Below are positions 3,112 to 11,219 of a stretch of DNA of 11,288 nt, piece by piece. The notes beneath the pieces were generated by a model. That model did not search any database, was not told the origin of the DNA, and was given only the letters and a program-made list of their open reading frames with translations. The translations under genes were made by a program, and so were the position numbers. The first letter of the stretch is position 1. The number at the start of each line of letters is the position of its first letter. The DNA comes from Rhizobium sp. Q54 (GTDB lineage: Bacteria; Bacteroidota; Bacteroidia; Flavobacteriales; Flavobacteriaceae), in assembly GCA_943324395.2 (NCBI GenBank), contig CALPLL020000045.1, forward strand, positions 1 to 11,288, in the 5' to 3' direction.

Positions 3112-3119
3112 TACATTTG
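3112..3119 (+). promoter_or_regulatory. Candidate Bacteroidota -7 promoter box for the thr leader and operon
   Basis: TACATTTG is an exact match to TAnnTTTG, the -7 consensus of the principal sigma factor in Flavobacterium/Bacteroides, and is the only exact match I found on the plus strand between nnrD and thrA. No clear TTG/TTTG -33 element lies at the usual 17-23 bp upstream, so it is a partial match. Transcription would be expected to begin near 3124-3128, right at the ATG of the leader frame. Confidence 0.5.
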
Positions 3120-3124
3120 AAATT

Positions 3125-3229
3125 ATGATAAAATATTACACTTCATTGTATCTGATATATCCAAGCGAAATTTCGCTTGCATCTTCAGTAAAAACAACAA
3201 CTTTAACAACTATTACCCCTTTGGGGTAA
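3125..3229 (+). CDS. Probable thr operon leader peptide (Thr/Ile codon-rich)
   Basis: A 34-codon frame from ATG 3125 to TAA 3227-3229 ends in KTTTLTTITPLG. The eight codons at 3194-3217 read Thr-Thr-Thr-Leu-Thr-Thr-Ile-Thr: six Thr and one Ile, the end product of this operon and its downstream derivative. Such a run just before a stop, 78 bp upstream of thrA, is the hallmark of leader peptides that sense charged tRNA(Thr)/tRNA(Ile), as with ThrL of enterobacteria. The first 21 residues (MIKYYTSLYLIYPSEISLASS) show no domain. The start is uncertain: this ATG falls where the predicted promoter would start transcription, implying a leaderless message, and in-frame TTG 3146 or CTG 3152 are alternatives. 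The frame is also open upstream to 2975, but that stretch is AT-rich and unlikely to be translated. The peptide is probably expendable once made; its translation would be the signal. Confidence 0.65.
   Translation: MIKYYTSLYLIYPSEISLASSVKTTTLTTITPLG
3162..3179. repeat. 18-bp perfect palindrome within the thr leader
   Basis: CAAGCGAAATTTCGCTTG is identical to its own reverse complement over 18 bp and is richer in GC than its surroundings. As RNA it would form a CAAGCG/CGCUUG stem with a small loop, about 15 nt before the Thr codons; as DNA it could be a dimeric regulator's operator located about 35-40 bp downstream of the predicted transcription start. No U-run follows, so it is not a terminator. 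Confidence 0.7.
3213..3229 (+). promoter_or_regulatory. Hairpin overlapping the leader stop codon; possible attenuator element
   Basis: TTACCCC (3213-3219) pairs perfectly with GGGGTAA (3223-3229) around a TTT loop. The 7-bp stem contains four G-C pairs, the densest GC run in the gap. It spans the last Thr codon, Pro-Leu-Gly and the stop codon of the leader peptide, so ribosome position must decide whether it folds. It is not directly followed by a U-tract (the next T-rich run starts near 3247), so it is not a canonical intrinsic terminator. No competing antiterminator partner for the G-run is evident. Confidence 0.55.
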
Positions 3230-3307
3230 CTATTTACATATAAACTACTCTATTTTCTTTTCACGTTAAGACAAAAAACTCTTTTACTTTTATTACAATA
3301 TAAAACA

Positions 3308-5758
3308 ATGAAAATTTTAAAATTCGGAGGCACTTCAGTAGCCAATGCAAATAATATAAAATTAGTCCTTTCAATTATTGAAAAAAAGGCAGCTCAATCA
3401 ACAAAAATGGCAGTGGTTGTTTCTGCTTTTAGTGGCGTTACCGACCTATTAATTTTGGCTGCCACAAAAGCAGCTTCGAAAGACTTTGGTTTTAATTATG
3501 TAGTTACTCAAATTCAAGAAAAACATCAAAAAGCAATTGAAGAATTAATAAATCCAAGTCAACAAAAAAACCTTACAGAAGTTATAAATACCGATATACA
3601 TCGCTTAAAAACTCTTTTAGAAGGTTGTTTTTTATTGGGGGAATTGTCAAATAGAACTTCTGATGCAATAGTGGGAATCGGAGAACTTTTGTCAAGTCAA
3701 ATAATTGCTAAAGCATTAGAACAAAAAGTACCTAATTCAGAATTTAAAGACGCTCGAGAGATTATTAAAACCAATAATCATTTTGGAAAAGCTGTTGTTA
3801 ATTTTGAATTGTCTAATCAATTAATTTATGAATATTTCAATTCTAAAGCGACTAAAATTAATGTAGTTCCAGGATTTATAGCAGCTTCAATTGATGGTTA
3901 TTCAACCACTTTAGGACGTGGTGGATCCGATTATACTGCAGCAATTATTGCTGGTGCGTTGAATGCTGAAATTCTTGAAATATGGACAGATGTAAGTGGA
4001 ATGTTTACTGCAAATCCAAAAATTGTAAAACAAGCGAGACCAATTGATTTTATTTCCTATCAAGAAGCTATGGAATTGTCACATTTTGGTGCAAAAGTCT
4101 TGTATCCTCCTACTATTCAGCCCGTTCTAAAACTCAATATTCCTATTGTAATAAAAAATACATTTGAACCTGAGGCACCTGGCACCTATATTTCTTCTGA
4201 AAGAAATGAAAATGAAAACCCAATAAAAGGAATTTCACATATTGATAATATTGCTTTATTAACATTAGAAGGCTCAGGAATGATTGGGGTTTCGGGATCT
4301 TCAAAAAGATTGTTTGAAGTTTTATCCAATGAAAATATTAATGTCATTTTCATTACACAGGCCTCATCAGAACACTCCATTTGTATAGGAATATTAAATG
4401 AAGACGCAAAAAAGGCACAATCTGCAATTGACAAAGCGTTTGAAGTTGAAATTTCCCAAAACAAAATTGACAGTACAATTGTTGAAGAAAATCTTTGTAT
4501 TGTGGCTTTGGTAGGTGAAAATATGAAAAATCATCAAGGGTTGAGCGGTAAAATGTTCAGTACACTTGGTAAAAATAATGTAAACATAAGAGCTATTGCT
4601 CAAGGCGCATCGGAAAGAAATATATCGGCAGTAATTAATAAACGTGATGTAAAAAAAGCATTAAATTCATTACACGAATGTTTCTTTGAAGACAATGCAA
4701 AACAATTGAATTTATTTGTAATGGGTGTAGGAAATGTTGGGGAAAAATTCATCGGACAAATTCATCAACAAAAGAAGTATTTAAAGGAAAATCTAAAAAT
4801 AAATCTTCGAGTAATTGCTTTATCAAATTCACGAAAAATGCTTTTTGACGAAGATGGAATTGAGCTGAAAGATTGGAAGACAAGTTTGGAACTCGGAGAA
4901 ATTACAAATAAAGATAAATTCATTTCTGATGTAATTGCACTCAATTTAAGAAACAGTATTTTTGTTGATGTTACAGCTAACGAGAGTATTTCTCAAACCT
5001 ATTCAAATTATTTAAGGCAAAATATAGCGGTAGTTACTTGCAACAAAATTGCTTGTTCCTCTGCTTATGATAATTACAGTAATTTGAAACAATTGTCAAG
5101 AAAATTCAATTCGCCTTTTCTGTTTGAAACTAATGTTGGAGCAGGTTTACCTATAATTGATACTTTAAAACATTTAATTGCTTCTGGTGATAAAGTTCAT
5201 AAAATACAAGCGGTACTTTCAGGAAGTTTGAATTTTATTTTTAATAATTTTGATGATAAAAATTCATTTCATGATGTTGTAAAAGAAGCAGGAGTTCAAG
5301 GATTTACAGAGCCAGATCCAAAAATTGATTTAAGCGGTGTTGATGTTGCTAGGAAGATTCTAATTCTTATTCGTGAAAGTGGTTATAAAATGGAAATGGA
5401 AGAAATTACCAACGAATCATTTTTGCCTATAGAATGTATGGAAACTAAAAATAACGAAGCATTCTTTGCTTCATTAATCAAACATTCTAGTCATTTTGAG
5501 AACATTTACAAGGAAGCTTTAGCAAAAGAATGTCGTTTAAAATATGTGGCTAAATTTGAAAATGGAAAAGCTAGTGTAGGATTACAATTTATTCCAAAAG
5601 AAAGTCCGTTTTACAATTTAGAAGGAAAAGATAATATTGTTCAATTTTATACCGACAGGTATGTTGATCAACCTTTACTAATAAAAGGTGCTGGTGCCGG
5701 TGCAGCGGTTACTGCATCAGGAATTTTTGCTGATGTAATACGAATAGGAAACGTTTAA
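3308..5758 (+). CDS. thrA: Bifunctional aspartokinase / homoserine dehydrogenase
   Basis: This 816-residue fusion has the length of the ThrA/MetL family. It catalyses the first step of the aspartate pathway (aspartate to aspartyl phosphate) and the later NAD(P)H-dependent reduction of aspartate semialdehyde to homoserine. The kinase half begins with KFGGTSVAN (5-13), has GRGGSDYTAA (203-212) and a WTDVSGMFTANP segment (226-237). Two ACT-type regulatory regions follow at about 315-380 and 396-460, the usual site of threonine feedback. The dehydrogenase half has the nucleotide-binding GVGNVGEKF (473-481), SGSLNFIFNNF (638-648), GFTEPDPKIDLSGVDVARK (665-683) with the catalytic Asp679/Lys683 pair, and a Gly/Ala-rich end KGAGAGAAVTASGIFADV (793-810). 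It is the first gene of thrABC, behind the Thr-rich leader. It is called ThrA rather than MetL because of the operon. Aspartate-semialdehyde dehydrogenase is not in the window. Confidence 0.96.
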   Translation: MKILKFGGTSVANANNIKLVLSIIEKKAAQSTKMAVVVSAFSGVTDLLILAATKAASKDFGFNYVVTQIQEKHQKAIEELINPSQQKNLTEVINTDIHRLKTLLEGCFLLGELSNRTSDAIVGIGELLSSQIIAKALEQKVPNSEFKDAREIIKTNNHFGKAVVNFELSNQLIYEYFNSKATKINVVPGFIAASIDGYSTTLGRGGSDYTAAIIAGALNAEILEIWTDVSGMFTANPKIVKQARPIDFISYQEAMELSHFGAKVLYPPTIQPVLKLNIPIVIKNTFEPEAPGTYISSERNENENPIKGISHIDNIALLTLEGSGMIGVSGSSKRLFEVLSNENINVIFITQASSEHSICIGILNEDAKKAQSAIDKAFEVEISQNKIDSTIVEENLCIVALVGENMKNHQGLSGKMFSTLGKNNVNIRAIAQGASERNISAVINKRDVKKALNSLHECFFEDNAKQLNLFVMGVGNVGEKFIGQIHQQKKYLKENLKINLRVIALSNSRKMLFDEDGIELKDWKTSLELGEITNKDKFISDVIALNLRNSIFVDVTANESISQTYSNYLRQNIAVVTCNKIACSSAYDNYSNLKQLSRKFNSPFLFETNVGAGLPIIDTLKHLIASGDKVHKIQAVLSGSLNFIFNNFDDKNSFHDVVKEAGVQGFTEPDPKIDLSGVDVARKILILIRESGYKMEMEEITNESFLPIECMETKNNEAFFASLIKHSSHFENIYKEALAKECRLKYVAKFENGKASVGLQFIPKESPFYNLEGKDNIVQFYTDRYVDQPLLIKGAGAGAAVTASGIFADVIRIGNV

Positions 5759-5809: not shown

Positions 5810-6730
5810 ATGAATGAAATTAAACTATTTTGTCCCGCAACGATTGCCAATATTTCTTGTGGATTTGATGTCCTAGGATTGTGTTTAGAAGCTGTTGGCG
5901 ATGAAATGATAATCAGAAAATCTGAAATTAAAGGGATTAAAATCATCAAAATTGATGGTGCTGAATTACCACTGGAGACTTCTAAAAATGTTGCTGGAGT
6001 TGCTGCTTTGGCACTTTTAGAAGCTACTGACTGTGAATTTGGATTTGAAATTGAAATTTATAAAAAAATTAAAGCTGGAAGTGGAATAGGAAGTTCTGCG
6101 GCAAGTGCAGCTGGAGCGGTTTTTGGAGTTAACGAATTATTAGGAAAACCATTTTCTAAAAAAGAGTTGGTACAATTTGCTATGAAAGGAGAGGCAATTG
6201 CCAGCGGAAGTGAACATGCTGATAATGTTGCTCCGGCAATTTTTGGTGGTATAACCTTGATTAGAAGTACAAAGCCATTGGATGTTATTAAAATTGAAAG
6301 TCCATCTGAATTGTACGCTACAGTTATTCACCCACAAATTGAACTTAAAACTTCAGATATGAGGGCAGTTTTAAAACCAGAAGTTTCTTTAAAAAGCGCC
6401 ATCATTCAATGGGGAAATTTAGGAGGATTAATTTCAGGGTTTTACACATCTGATTATGAATTAATTGGACGTTCTCTTCATGATGAAATTGTAGAACCTT
6501 TAAGAGGCCAATTTATTCCTAAATTTGATTTAATTAAAAGAATGGCTTTAGAAAATGGAGCATTAGGATCTGGAATTTCTGGTTCCGGGCCATCAATATT
6601 TGCTTTAAGCAAAGGAGTTGAAACAGCCAATAGAATTGCAAATACTATAGGTGATGTATATAAAGAGATGAATTTACCTTATGATATTCATGTTTCAAAA
6701 GTGAATTCGGAGGGAATTAAAATATTATAA
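5810..6730 (+). CDS. thrB: Homoserine kinase (GHMP family)
   Basis: This 306-residue protein phosphorylates homoserine with ATP to O-phosphohomoserine, the substrate of ThrC. GHMP-kinase motifs are in order: N-terminal CPATIANISCGFDVLGLCL (8-26), the ATP-binding KAGSGIGSSAASAAGA (88-103), the GSEHADNVAPAIFGG segment (133-147), and the C-terminal GSGISGSGPSIFAL (253-266). The start ATG follows thrA by 51 bp with no Shine-Dalgarno. The spacer carries only a weak 5-bp AAGTT/AACTT stem (5766-5779) followed by T's and a small TGACT-type direct repeat (5785-5796), neither clearly functional. It is almost certainly cotranscribed with thrA and thrC. Confidence 0.96.
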   Translation: MNEIKLFCPATIANISCGFDVLGLCLEAVGDEMIIRKSEIKGIKIIKIDGAELPLETSKNVAGVAALALLEATDCEFGFEIEIYKKIKAGSGIGSSAASAAGAVFGVNELLGKPFSKKELVQFAMKGEAIASGSEHADNVAPAIFGGITLIRSTKPLDVIKIESPSELYATVIHPQIELKTSDMRAVLKPEVSLKSAIIQWGNLGGLISGFYTSDYELIGRSLHDEIVEPLRGQFIPKFDLIKRMALENGALGSGISGSGPSIFALSKGVETANRIANTIGDVYKEMNLPYDIHVSKVNSEGIKIL

Positions 6731-6735
6731 AAAAA

Positions 6736-6760
6736 GATTGCTTCGCACTTAGCAATGACA
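6736..6760. repeat. Small hairpin repeat remnant between thrB and thrC
   Basis: ATTGCT (6737-6742) and AGCAAT (6751-6756) form a 6-bp stem around an 8-nt loop. The whole segment, GATTGCTTCGC...AGCAATGAC, resembles a family of dispersed intergenic hairpin repeats of form ATTGCTTCG...GCAATGAC that I associate with several bacterial genomes; that link is from memory and unproven here. It fills most of the 33-bp thrB-thrC spacer and supplies an in-frame ATG at 6755. Confidence 0.4.
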
Positions 6761-6763
6761 AAA

Positions 6764-8059
6764 ATGAAATACTACAGTTTAAACCATAACGCACCTAAAG
6801 TATCATTTCAAGATGCTGTAATTCAAGGATTAGCTCCCGATAAAGGCCTTTATTTTCCTGAAAGCCTCACTCCTATTCCTTTTGAATTTTATAAAAATAT
6901 CGATACACTTTCAAATGAAGAAATTGCTTTTGAAGTAATTCAACAATTTATAGGCGATGAAATTCCGGAAGCAAATCTGAGACAAATTATTTCAGAAACA
7001 CTTTGTTTTGATTTTCCAACAGTTAAAATTGAACATAATATCTATTCTTTGGAGCTGTTTCATGGGCCTACAATGGCATTTAAAGATGTTGGTGCACGAT
7101 TTATGTCTCGTTGTTTAGCGTATTTTAATTTGGATAAAAAAGAGGCTAAAAATACAGTAATTGTTGCTACCTCAGGAGATACTGGAGGTGCAGTTGCAAG
7201 TGGTTTTTTAGGTGTTGAGGGCGTTGATGTAGTCATTTTGTATCCTTCAGGAAAAGTAAGTGATATTCAAGAACGACAATTGACGACTTTAGGACAGAAT
7301 GTAACCGCATTGGAAGTTGATGGTGTTTTTGATGATTGTCAAGATATGGTTAAAAAAGCTTTTTTAGATGATAATTTAAATTATAAAAATCTTACGTCTG
7401 CAAATTCTATTAATATTGCCCGATGGTTACCACAAATGTTTTACTTTTTCTTTGCCTACAAGCAATTAAAATCCGAAAATAAACCACTTATATTTTCTTG
7501 TCCGAGTGGGAATTTTGGAAATATCTGTGCGGGAATTATAGCCAAAAAATTAGGATTGCCAATTGAACATTTTGTAGCTTCTACCAATGCAAATGATACC
7601 GTTCCACGCTTTTTAGAAACTGGATTTTACGATCCAAAACCTTCTAAAGCAACAATCTCCAATGCTATGGATGTTGGAAATCCTAGCAATTTTATTCGGA
7701 TTCAAGAAATATACAACAATGATTTATCTGAATTTAAAAAAGATTTTTCTTCCTATACTTTTAGTGACAACGAAACTGAAATTGCCATTAAAACAATATA
7801 TAAAAACTCAAATTATATTGCTGAACCTCACGGAGCTATTGGATATCTGGGATTAAAAAAGGAATTATTAACCCATCCGAACTCTATTGGTCTTTTTCTT
7901 GAAACAGCTCATCCAATTAAATTTATAGATACAGTTGAGCCAATTTTAAAAGTAAAACTTCCTATTCCCACCCAAATTGAAAGTGTATTGAATAAGAAAA
8001 AGAGAAGCATAAAAATTAAAACTTACGAAGAATTTAAAGAGTTTTTAAAACTACAATAA
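6764..8059 (+). CDS. thrC: Threonine synthase
   Basis: The PLP enzyme converts O-phosphohomoserine to threonine plus phosphate, the last step of the pathway. From the chosen start it is 431 residues. Seen: N-terminal MKYYSLNHNAPKVSFQDAV typical of the family, the PLP-lysine motif HGPTMAFKDVGARF with Lys107, the substrate loop ATSGDTGGAVASG (136-148), SCPSGNFGNICAG (245-257), a PLP-phosphate-binding segment, and ETAHPIKF near the C-terminus (380-387). An in-frame ATG nine bases upstream (6755) would add Met-Thr-Lys, but that ATG lies inside the intergenic hairpin and the conserved N-terminus begins at 6764. It ends the thrABC run; no clear intrinsic terminator follows, so read-through toward gcvT is possible. 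Confidence 0.95.
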   Translation: MKYYSLNHNAPKVSFQDAVIQGLAPDKGLYFPESLTPIPFEFYKNIDTLSNEEIAFEVIQQFIGDEIPEANLRQIISETLCFDFPTVKIEHNIYSLELFHGPTMAFKDVGARFMSRCLAYFNLDKKEAKNTVIVATSGDTGGAVASGFLGVEGVDVVILYPSGKVSDIQERQLTTLGQNVTALEVDGVFDDCQDMVKKAFLDDNLNYKNLTSANSINIARWLPQMFYFFFAYKQLKSENKPLIFSCPSGNFGNICAGIIAKKLGLPIEHFVASTNANDTVPRFLETGFYDPKPSKATISNAMDVGNPSNFIRIQEIYNNDLSEFKKDFSSYTFSDNETEIAIKTIYKNSNYIAEPHGAIGYLGLKKELLTHPNSIGLFLETAHPIKFIDTVEPILKVKLPIPTQIESVLNKKKRSIKIKTYEEFKEFLKLQ

Positions 8060-10178: not shown

Positions 10179-11219
10179 TTATTTAATAAACTCTATTTTT
10201 TGAGCTTCTTCTAAATTTACACTATCGAAGAATCCTTGTTCATTCATCCAATCATCACTGAAAACTTTACTCATATAGCGAGATCCGTGATCTGGGAAAA
10301 CAGCAATAACATTACTATTTTTATTAAATTCTCCTTCCTGTGCATATTGTCTAATCGCTTGAAGAACAGCCCCAGAGGTATATCCAACGAACAATCCTTC
10401 TCTTTTTGCTAACTCACGAGTAGCATGAGCACTTTCCTCGTCGGTAACTTTCATAAAATGATCTATCGAATCAAAATCTGTTGCCGATGGGATTAAGTTT
10501 TTCCCTAAACCTTCAATTCGGTAAGGATATATTTCTTCGTTGTCAAACTCTCTGGTTTCGTGGTATTTTTTTAATACCGATCCAAAAGCGTCTACACCTA
10601 AAATTCTAATGTTTGGATTTTTTTCTTTCAAGTATTTTGCAATTCCCGAAATGGTACCTCCCGTTCCACTACAAGCTACTAAATGGGTAATTTTACCTTT
10701 TGTTTGTTCCCAAATTTCAGGTCCAGTAGTTTTATAATGTGCATCAATATTCAATTGGTTAAAATACTGATTGATATAAACGGATCCTTTTGTTTCTTCA
10801 TGTAGGCGTTTTGCTACTGAATAATAAGAACGTTCATCGTCAGCAGAAACATTGGCAGGGCAAACATATACTTTTGCACCCATGCTTCGCAACATATCTA
10901 TTTTATCTAGGGAAGATTTTGAACTTACTGCTAAAATACAGTTGTAACCTTTAATAATACTCACCATCGCCAAACTAAAGCCGGTATTACCAGAAGTAGT
11001 TTCAATAATTGTATCTCCAGGAGAAATAATGCCTTTTCTTTCAGCTTCCTCAATAATATAAAGAGCAATTCTATCTTTCGACGAATGACCTGGATTGAAA
11101 GATTCTACTTTAGCGTAGAAATTTCCATCTAGGTTCTCTGTAACTTTATTTAATTTAATTAAAGGAGTATTCCCAATTAAATCTAGCACGCTTTCGAAGG
11201 CATTTATTTTTTCGTTCAT
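10179..11219 (-). CDS. PLP-dependent cysteine synthase / cystathionine beta-synthase-like enzyme
   Basis: This 346-residue fold-type II PLP enzyme has [10 protein letters not shown] (14-23), the PLP-lysine loop [11 protein letters not shown] with Lys48 (42-52), the substrate-binding asparagine loop [12 protein letters not shown] (73-84), the phosphate-binding SGTGGTISG (184-192), the GLGKNLIP segment (237-244) and Ser282 in GYTSGAV. The end, [16 protein letters not shown] (310-325), resembles the catalytic-core end of cystathionine beta-synthases rather than of short CysK/CysM. There is no N-terminal heme region and no C-terminal CBS-pair domain. It therefore makes either cysteine from O-acetylserine and sulfide, or cystathionine from serine and homocysteine; the sequence favours CBS-like relatedness but does not settle the substrate. 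The lysine loop reads GHSS where most relatives have GGSV. It is convergent with yebC and behind its own candidate promoter. Confidence 0.88.

Follow-up and report, generated by a model that had tools for sequence, protein, structure and literature searches.

The window analysed here, the whole stretch of 11,288 nucleotides, carries on its forward strand the genes for a bifunctional aspartate kinase/homoserine dehydrogenase I (thrA, 3308-5758; NF006959, 1041 bits, cut-off 726), homoserine kinase (thrB, 5810-6730; NCBIfam) and threonine synthase (thrC, 6755-8059; NCBIfam), preceded on the same strand by a short threonine-rich open reading frame, MIKYYTSLYLIYPSEISLASSVKTTTLTTITPLG-stop (3125-3229), recognised from its sequence and its conservation across relatives. 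This frame comprises 34 codons, from the ATG at 3125-3127 to the TAA at 3227-3229; its peptide has the C-terminus KTTTLTTITPLG, and 78 nt (3230-3307) separate its stop codon from the thrA ATG at 3308. The frame, its peptide and this distance, read from the sequence with the genes assigned by NCBIfam, are as the preliminary description had given them. The eight control codons ACA ACA ACT TTA ACA ACT ATT ACC (3194-3217, forward strand), delimited by conservation of the Thr run, encode TTTLTTIT, with Thr at six positions and Leu and Ile at one each. Across all six frames of the window, at least five AC-codons (Thr) occur in only 8 of 22,506 twelve-codon segments, and all eight lie inside the leader frame. 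The genome carrying the window is 1.8 Mb in size and 65% complete. The window also encodes, on the minus strand at 10179-11219, a cysteate synthase (NCBIfam equivalog, 647.8 bits, cut-off 600), a gene that we take to be one of sulfonolipid synthesis.

A Bacteroidota -7 promoter box, TACATTTG (3112-3119, forward strand), ends five bases 5' of the leader ATG and follows the TAnnTTTG consensus given in the consulted part of PMC9723704. Because that source places the box at -12 to -5 in F. psychrophilum, transcription is predicted to start at about 3124, which would leave the leader frame almost without a 5' UTR.

Conservation was assessed in a genus set built from 45 named loci, 30 loci from a genus search and 60 fetched stretches, deduplicated to 122 regions upstream of thrA, nearly all from Flavobacterium; one stretch (L116), taken from the wrong side of thrA, was left out. 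A hairpin of the form ACCC-N2-6-GGG(G/T), named P2, closes a Thr-rich frame in 108 of the 122 regions. Five to nine Thr codons stand among the last 11 codons in 102 of these 108, a count with a mild bias, since the hairpin with the most Thr codons upstream was chosen wherever several candidates were present. The peptides of relatives end in ...TTTTTP-stop, ...TTTTPLG-stop or ...TTTTPFGV-stop; at this end of the peptide the hairpin is the fixed feature and the residues are not. In 87 unique sequences, the eight codons that precede P2 show mean entropies of 0.89, 0.80 and 1.38 bits at their first, second and third positions, and the length of the leader before the ACC varies from 24 to 36 codons in whole-codon steps (in-frame ATGs alone counted). 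The upstream alignment proposed in the preliminary description has thus been carried out with a favourable outcome: the Thr run is kept while other stretches drift, as the codon-position entropies, the whole-codon length changes and the recurrence of the run in other genera and families indicate, and the reading as a Thr/Ile-rich leader is supported. The TAnnTTTG box lies upstream in 107 of the 108 P2-bearing loci, and in 100 of these 107 the first ATG after it is in frame with the Thr run (six are out of frame, one has no ATG). The start codon, which had been called uncertain, is less so than feared, with the promoter box standing before ATG 3125 and this agreement among relatives.

Fourteen of the 122 regions have no such hairpin (L006, L007, L009, L019, L039, L040, L041, L046, L047, L067, L119, L127, L128 and L133). 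Judged by eye, several of them have a promoter box near thrA instead, and L133 has a Thr-rich frame with a different hairpin. In the close relative L039 (88% ThrA identity), the leader start codon and P2 look decayed by eye in the last 330 bases before thrA, which looks like either natural loss or an assembly error. Several MAG entries in the set have titles that look wrong: L005, L006, L019 and L039 are titled Bifidobacterium, Rhizobium, Bdellovibrio and Chitinophaga, and their ThrA is 77-88% identical to the Flavobacterium-type protein.

The leader region comprises three hairpins, P1 to P3, and a conserved box. The first hairpin, P1 (CAAGCGA-AATT-TCGCTTG, 3162-3179, forward strand), is supported by covariation and predicted in the window fold; it lies within the reading frame, 5' of the Thr codons, and begins 37 nt after the A of the ATG however long the Thr run is. 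In this position pairing is seen in 87.6% of cells, against a mean of 74.2% and a maximum of 77.1% in 500 re-dealings (101 unique sequences; the comparison ignores relatedness, and the placement is the best of a scan with a median of 34.2% over all placements), and several pair types occur at most positions. P2 (TTACCCC-TTT-GGGGTAA, 3213-3229, forward strand) closes the frame; the last Thr codon lies in its 5' arm and the stop codon in its 3' arm. It is present in the window fold and is the sole hairpin common to both RNAalifold consensus folds; RNAalifold gave no consensus beyond it, apart from a hairpin P3 in the genus set. The window's leader fold has a z-score of -4.05, with none of 200 shuffles as low.

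Downstream of P2 lies the box ACATATAAACT (3236-3246, forward strand), with its CATAT core at 3237-3241, 9 nt after GGGGT. Among 101 unique genus sequences aligned on their (C/T)ATAT match, the consensus is ACATATAATCC, ATAT is invariant, the C is present in 100 and AATCC follows ATAT in most. The gap from GGGGT to (C/T)ATAT measures 9 nt in seven loci, 10 nt in 67 and 11 nt in 26, which together make up 100 of the 103 measurable genus loci, and this range holds for three- and four-base P2 loops alike. The strict box follows P2 in 88 of 108 genus loci; it occurs in none of the 14 hairpin-less loci and is absent from 106,204 nt of thrA coding sequence. The family's other genera frequently have TATAT as the core, and in them hairpin plus (C/T)ATAT is found in 56 of 88 loci (shuffled mean 0.35). 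Further downstream is P3 (3256-3271, forward strand), a weak hairpin of four pairs in the window fold (TCTT/AAGA); in 99 of 103 relatives the 45 nt that follow the box fold better than the mean of their own shuffles, and the arms of P3 vary together between clades by eye.

The exact pattern CCCC-N3-4-GGGGT-N6-14-ACATATAA has one match each in 49 of 101 genus genomes and none in the other 52, and the control gave 0. By eye all 49 matches stand beside thrA, 47 of them within about 60-210 nt; the exceptions are G031, where the neighbour is a partial thrA match, and G068, where the leader (L119, G068:C27:228188-228963) lies about 720 nt upstream, with the pattern match at 228166 and thrA at 228888. 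An element common to several operons was considered and rejected, the pattern being found once per genome, beside thrA, in the matching genomes. At L119 a short separate gene apparently lies between the thr leader and thrA; its product resembles, we presume, a GxxExxY-type protein.

The leader extends beyond the genus. In other genera of Flavobacteriaceae, 69 of 88 upstream regions pass the same kind of threshold, or 74 with five added by eye that fall below the Thr threshold (L252, L261, L266, L289 and L294). Sixty-four of these 74 have the promoter box, the first ATG being in frame in 53, out of frame in nine and absent in two; the other ten have no box. In a phylum-wide sample of 40 loci, our own reading found the hairpin leader in L301, L302, L303, L305, L306, L308 and L322, a strand-swapped hairpin in L310 and L311 (the latter without CATAT), thr leaders with canonical terminators in L315, L316 and L323, and no such leader in the remaining 28. 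In family f8, where 25 of 30 loci were scanned, an automatic rule assigned hairpin plus CATAT to six loci and a terminator to two leader loci. In the order around G356, with 20 of 30 loci scanned, three have the leader, in the same genomes as L305, L306 and L308, and 17 have none. The Thr leader is widespread yet far from universal, and it is not indispensable, since it is missing from 28 of 40 phylum-wide loci, 17 of 20 in the G356 order and 14 of 122 close ones. Many members of the family also have a second aspartate kinase/homoserine dehydrogenase (about 37-40% identity), frequently in an open frame some 1130 codons long.

In family f8 the P2 stem is strand-swapped and reads ACGGG..CCCGT in place of ACCCC..GGGGT. 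The last Thr codon, here ACG, and the stop codon still fall within the swapped P2, and the spacing to CATAT is unchanged. The swapped pattern with CATAT 8-11 nt downstream has 19 matches in 18 of 60 genomes, against, by our own count, 13 for the reversed control, and is therefore not specific by itself. In 15 of the 19 a thrA-like start lies 59-77 nt downstream, and 14 of these 15 have a leader ending in TG plus stop; a chance pattern would not place 15 of 19 matches before thrA.

Some pairings involving the box were considered by eye and not adopted. An antiterminator pairing between the 3' arm of P2 and the box cannot draw on covariation, which is uninformative because that arm is nearly invariant in the genus, and the strand swap argues against it. 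As long-range partners of the box, GGGGUAUA of P2, the P1 3' arm, the leader start, the downstream GGGUAUAU and the P2 loop each fit some clades and fail in others; the 3' arm of P1, moreover, varies where the box stays constant.

The preliminary description had also stated that the structure downstream of the frame differs from the enterobacterial one, and this holds: a consensus scan of the window found no intrinsic terminator after the leader. A scan for a hairpin with a T-tract was applied to 108 genus and 88 family thr loci with controls. It is passed by all his, trp and ilv leaders scanned (10/10, 9/9 and 7/7) versus 3 of the 108 genus thr loci; Markov-shuffled thr sequences pass in 2 of 324 cases. 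An intrinsic terminator as the general thr platform was rejected, 105 of 108 genus loci being without one. The passes that do occur often involve P2 itself, which with a T-rich tail accounts for two of the three in the genus (L069, L076) and four of the seven in the family (L252, L273, L285, L295); at these six loci P2 may act as a weak intrinsic terminator. L288 and L299 have separate canonical terminators, and the Thr leaders before thrA with a canonical intrinsic terminator are L288, L299, L315, L316, L323, L347 and L356.

One automatic rule was then applied to 177 leader loci, a set that leaves out the distant L038, L040, L041, L046 and L047 as well as L310, which comes from the same genome as L346. 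Hairpin plus CATAT was assigned to 118, a terminator to seven, both to none and neither to 52; under this strict CATAT definition, 40 of the 52 belong to the family, where the box is often TATAT. The chance of zero overlap would be about 4e-4 if loci were independent, which they are not. Because the two never coincide in the 177 leader loci, terminator and hairpin plus CATAT look like alternative platforms.

The control leaders come from the same genus, with the peptides HHHH... before hisG, TWWW... before trpE and Ile/Val-rich ones before ilvD. The ten loci before hisG (L196-L205) encode His-rich peptides, for instance QLHHHHxHYCSQAMC, and all have canonical terminators. For trp, 10 of 20 loci were scanned, nine with a leader at the called start and L210 without. 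For ilv, 12 of 14 loci were viewed and seven scanned, L235 and L239 being left out for their broken frames; the seven before ilvD (L226-L231, L233) have Ile/Val-rich leader peptides and strong terminators throughout, and no leader was found in L232, L234 and L236-L238. Rfam gave no match for the his locus L198 or the ilv locus L231, the one locus of each that was tried.

A run of Thr codons in cis before thrABC is a hallmark of ribosome-mediated attenuation, and on this ground the Thr-codon leader very probably serves as a sensor. That the frame is the leader of a ribosome-mediated thrABC attenuator, sensing charged Thr-tRNA through a platform other than an intrinsic terminator, is the reading that we favour with some confidence. 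The sequence of events could be as follows. Transcription would begin at or just before the leader ATG, and the ribosome would probably translate the frame immediately; P1, whose distance from the start codon is constant, may cause an earlier pause during which the first ribosome could load. The Thr-codon run would then tie the speed of the ribosome to the supply of Thr-tRNA, a step strongly supported by conservation and one that we consider highly probable. P2 might next form in the RNA exit channel and hold the polymerase over the CATAT 9-11 nt downstream, since the fixed spacing and the invariant box have the geometry of an exit-channel hairpin with the polymerase over a motif; we put the chances of such a hairpin-timed pause at about even. 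When threonine is plentiful, the ribosome would leave, P2 could form, and the bare RNA, rich in C and poor in G, might allow Rho to release the paused polymerase. When threonine is scarce, a ribosome halted on the Thr codons would sit over the 5' arm of P2 and shield the RNA, and transcription would continue into thrABC.

The involvement of Rho is proposed more tentatively. It would be the natural finisher because a terminator is absent and Rho is present, the window's genome (G000) encoding it (PF07497, 111 bits). In 54 loci, the 36 nt before P2 contain 26% C and 11% G, compared with 17% and 19% in thrA, a composition that follows from the Thr codons themselves. ACC makes up 6.3% of Thr codons in the leader versus 24.7% in thrA, which speaks against selection for a Rho-loading site; its depletion may instead avoid mispairing with GGGG. 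A further point counts against the scheme as drawn, namely that P2 would lie beyond the reach of a ribosome arrested near the beginning of the Thr run. In its most specific form, which we advance only as a conjecture and hold to be somewhat doubtful, P2 with CATAT at 9-11 nt would be a distinct class of platform, terminator-less and sequence-marked, for hairpin-timed pausing or release of the polymerase on Bacteroidota Thr leaders, evolutionarily interchangeable with intrinsic terminators and perhaps read by a dedicated factor.

Other explanations have to be weighed against this attenuator with a non-terminator platform. P2 could itself be a weak intrinsic terminator, the spacer serving as its U-tract and the box being merely the release or downstream region, in an otherwise classical attenuator. 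The six loci at which P2 and its tail pass the scan (L069, L076, L252, L273, L285, L295) fit this, as does the genus spacer, which leans to T (54-81 of 101 at positions -6 to -2). However, at least 102 of 108 genus loci fail a scan that 26 of 26 his, trp and ilv leaders pass, CATAT and its spacing are the most conserved part and the T run less so, and family f8 and other genera have many spacers with no enrichment in T. P2 is moreover only 13-14 nt long, shorter and weaker than the his, trp and ilv terminators (-11 to -20 kcal/mol), and we consider this explanation unlikely. Somewhat less likely still is that P2, the box and P3 are the site at which a protein binding RNA or DNA determines what becomes of the message, in competition with the leader ribosome. 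A hairpin and a single-stranded motif at fixed spacing, near-invariant as ACATATAATCC in the genus, would suit a protein that reads sequence, and 49 of 101 genomes have a single copy of the exact element, next to thrA; yet the sequence of the P2 stem can differ completely between families, and a protein serving one site per genome would be unusual.

The leader might also act on the translation or stability of the thrA message and not on transcription, for which the absent intrinsic terminator and the mere 78 nt between the leader stop and thrA could be invoked. Nevertheless, the thrA start region is fairly open in predicted folds (median unpaired probability 0.64, n=108), which gives no indication that the start is simply sequestered, P2 and thrA lie about 90 to 270 nt apart across the genus, and other thr leaders use terminators; we rate this explanation as improbable as the protein site. 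As for a codon-biased frame that arose by chance and has no function, it could appeal to the shortness of the frame, to its lack of a Pfam match and to the 14 of 122 loci without the hairpin. Such an origin is extremely improbable given that the frame, the Thr run, P1, P2, the box and the spacing are kept across genera and families, and that no other place in the six frames of the window has at least five Thr codons in twelve.

If the proposed platform is real, it would be an addition to those of ribosome-mediated attenuation and a probe for pausing and Rho in Bacteroidota. The same genomes hold textbook attenuators for his, trp and ilv and something else for thr, which amounts to a built-in comparison, and since both terminator-bearing and terminator-less thr leaders occur within the single family f8, exchanging parts between them offers a way to probe the latter platform. 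Bacteroidota are known for unusual promoters and translation starts, and little is described on the control of their amino-acid operons in the literature searched. A comparative study of attenuators from 2004 reportedly mentions Bacteroidetes/Chlorobi. Our full-text search, whose coverage leaves out most subscription papers, found no description of the hairpin-plus-CATAT platform.

The enterobacterial thr operon is controlled by ribosome-mediated attenuation through the leader thrL. The leader described here resembles thrL in being a short frame of Thr/Ile codons directly before thrABC that presumably senses tRNA charging, and differs from it by the stop-codon hairpin with CATAT at fixed spacing and by having no intrinsic terminator after the leader in the window. 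The lack of evident homology to ThrL noted in the preliminary description is borne out by the database searches, in which Rfam returned nothing at the gathering score (four unrelated sub-threshold matches to E 10) and Pfam no family to E 10; it is plausible that the two leaders evolved separately. A leader peptide without an obvious intrinsic terminator is also known from tnaC of E. coli, and the thr leader is similar to it in this respect. The CATAT box, for its part, differs from what we take to be the E. coli pause consensus.

Within the Bacteroidota, leader-peptide attenuation before amino-acid operons of Flavobacterium psychrophilum was proposed in 2021 from structured 5' regions (PMC9723704), and leader attenuation in Flavobacterium is therefore prior art. 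The genus and the general mechanism are the same; the consulted part of that text names no threonine operon and describes attenuation of transcriptional elongation without the present platform. The Bacteroid-trp leader RNA (Rfam RF01692; PMC2864571, consulted in part) is likewise a Bacteroidota leader peptide before an amino-acid operon, and its model matches the trp leader L208 of a relative (12 loci tried). Unlike that RNA, which has Trp codons and, in the scanned loci, an intrinsic terminator, the window gives no match to the model. Terminator-less leaders have been reported in Actinobacteria for cys and, with the LEU element, for leuA, Rho being proposed for cys (PMC1262725, consulted in part). 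Like the thr leader, they combine control codons or a leader peptide with no obvious intrinsic terminator; they belong to another phylum and other amino acids, and a hairpin with CATAT is not mentioned in the part of that article consulted. A pseudoknot has been proposed for the LEU element (same source), whereas support for one was not found in the thr leader. Finally, the hairpin-stabilised RNA polymerase pause of the hisL/trpL/thrL1 type is described in the consulted part of PMC9291695, which also covers thrL. In both cases a hairpin within a leader-peptide region precedes the polymerase active site by a short, defined interval; the pause proposed here is predicted from the 9-11 nt spacing.
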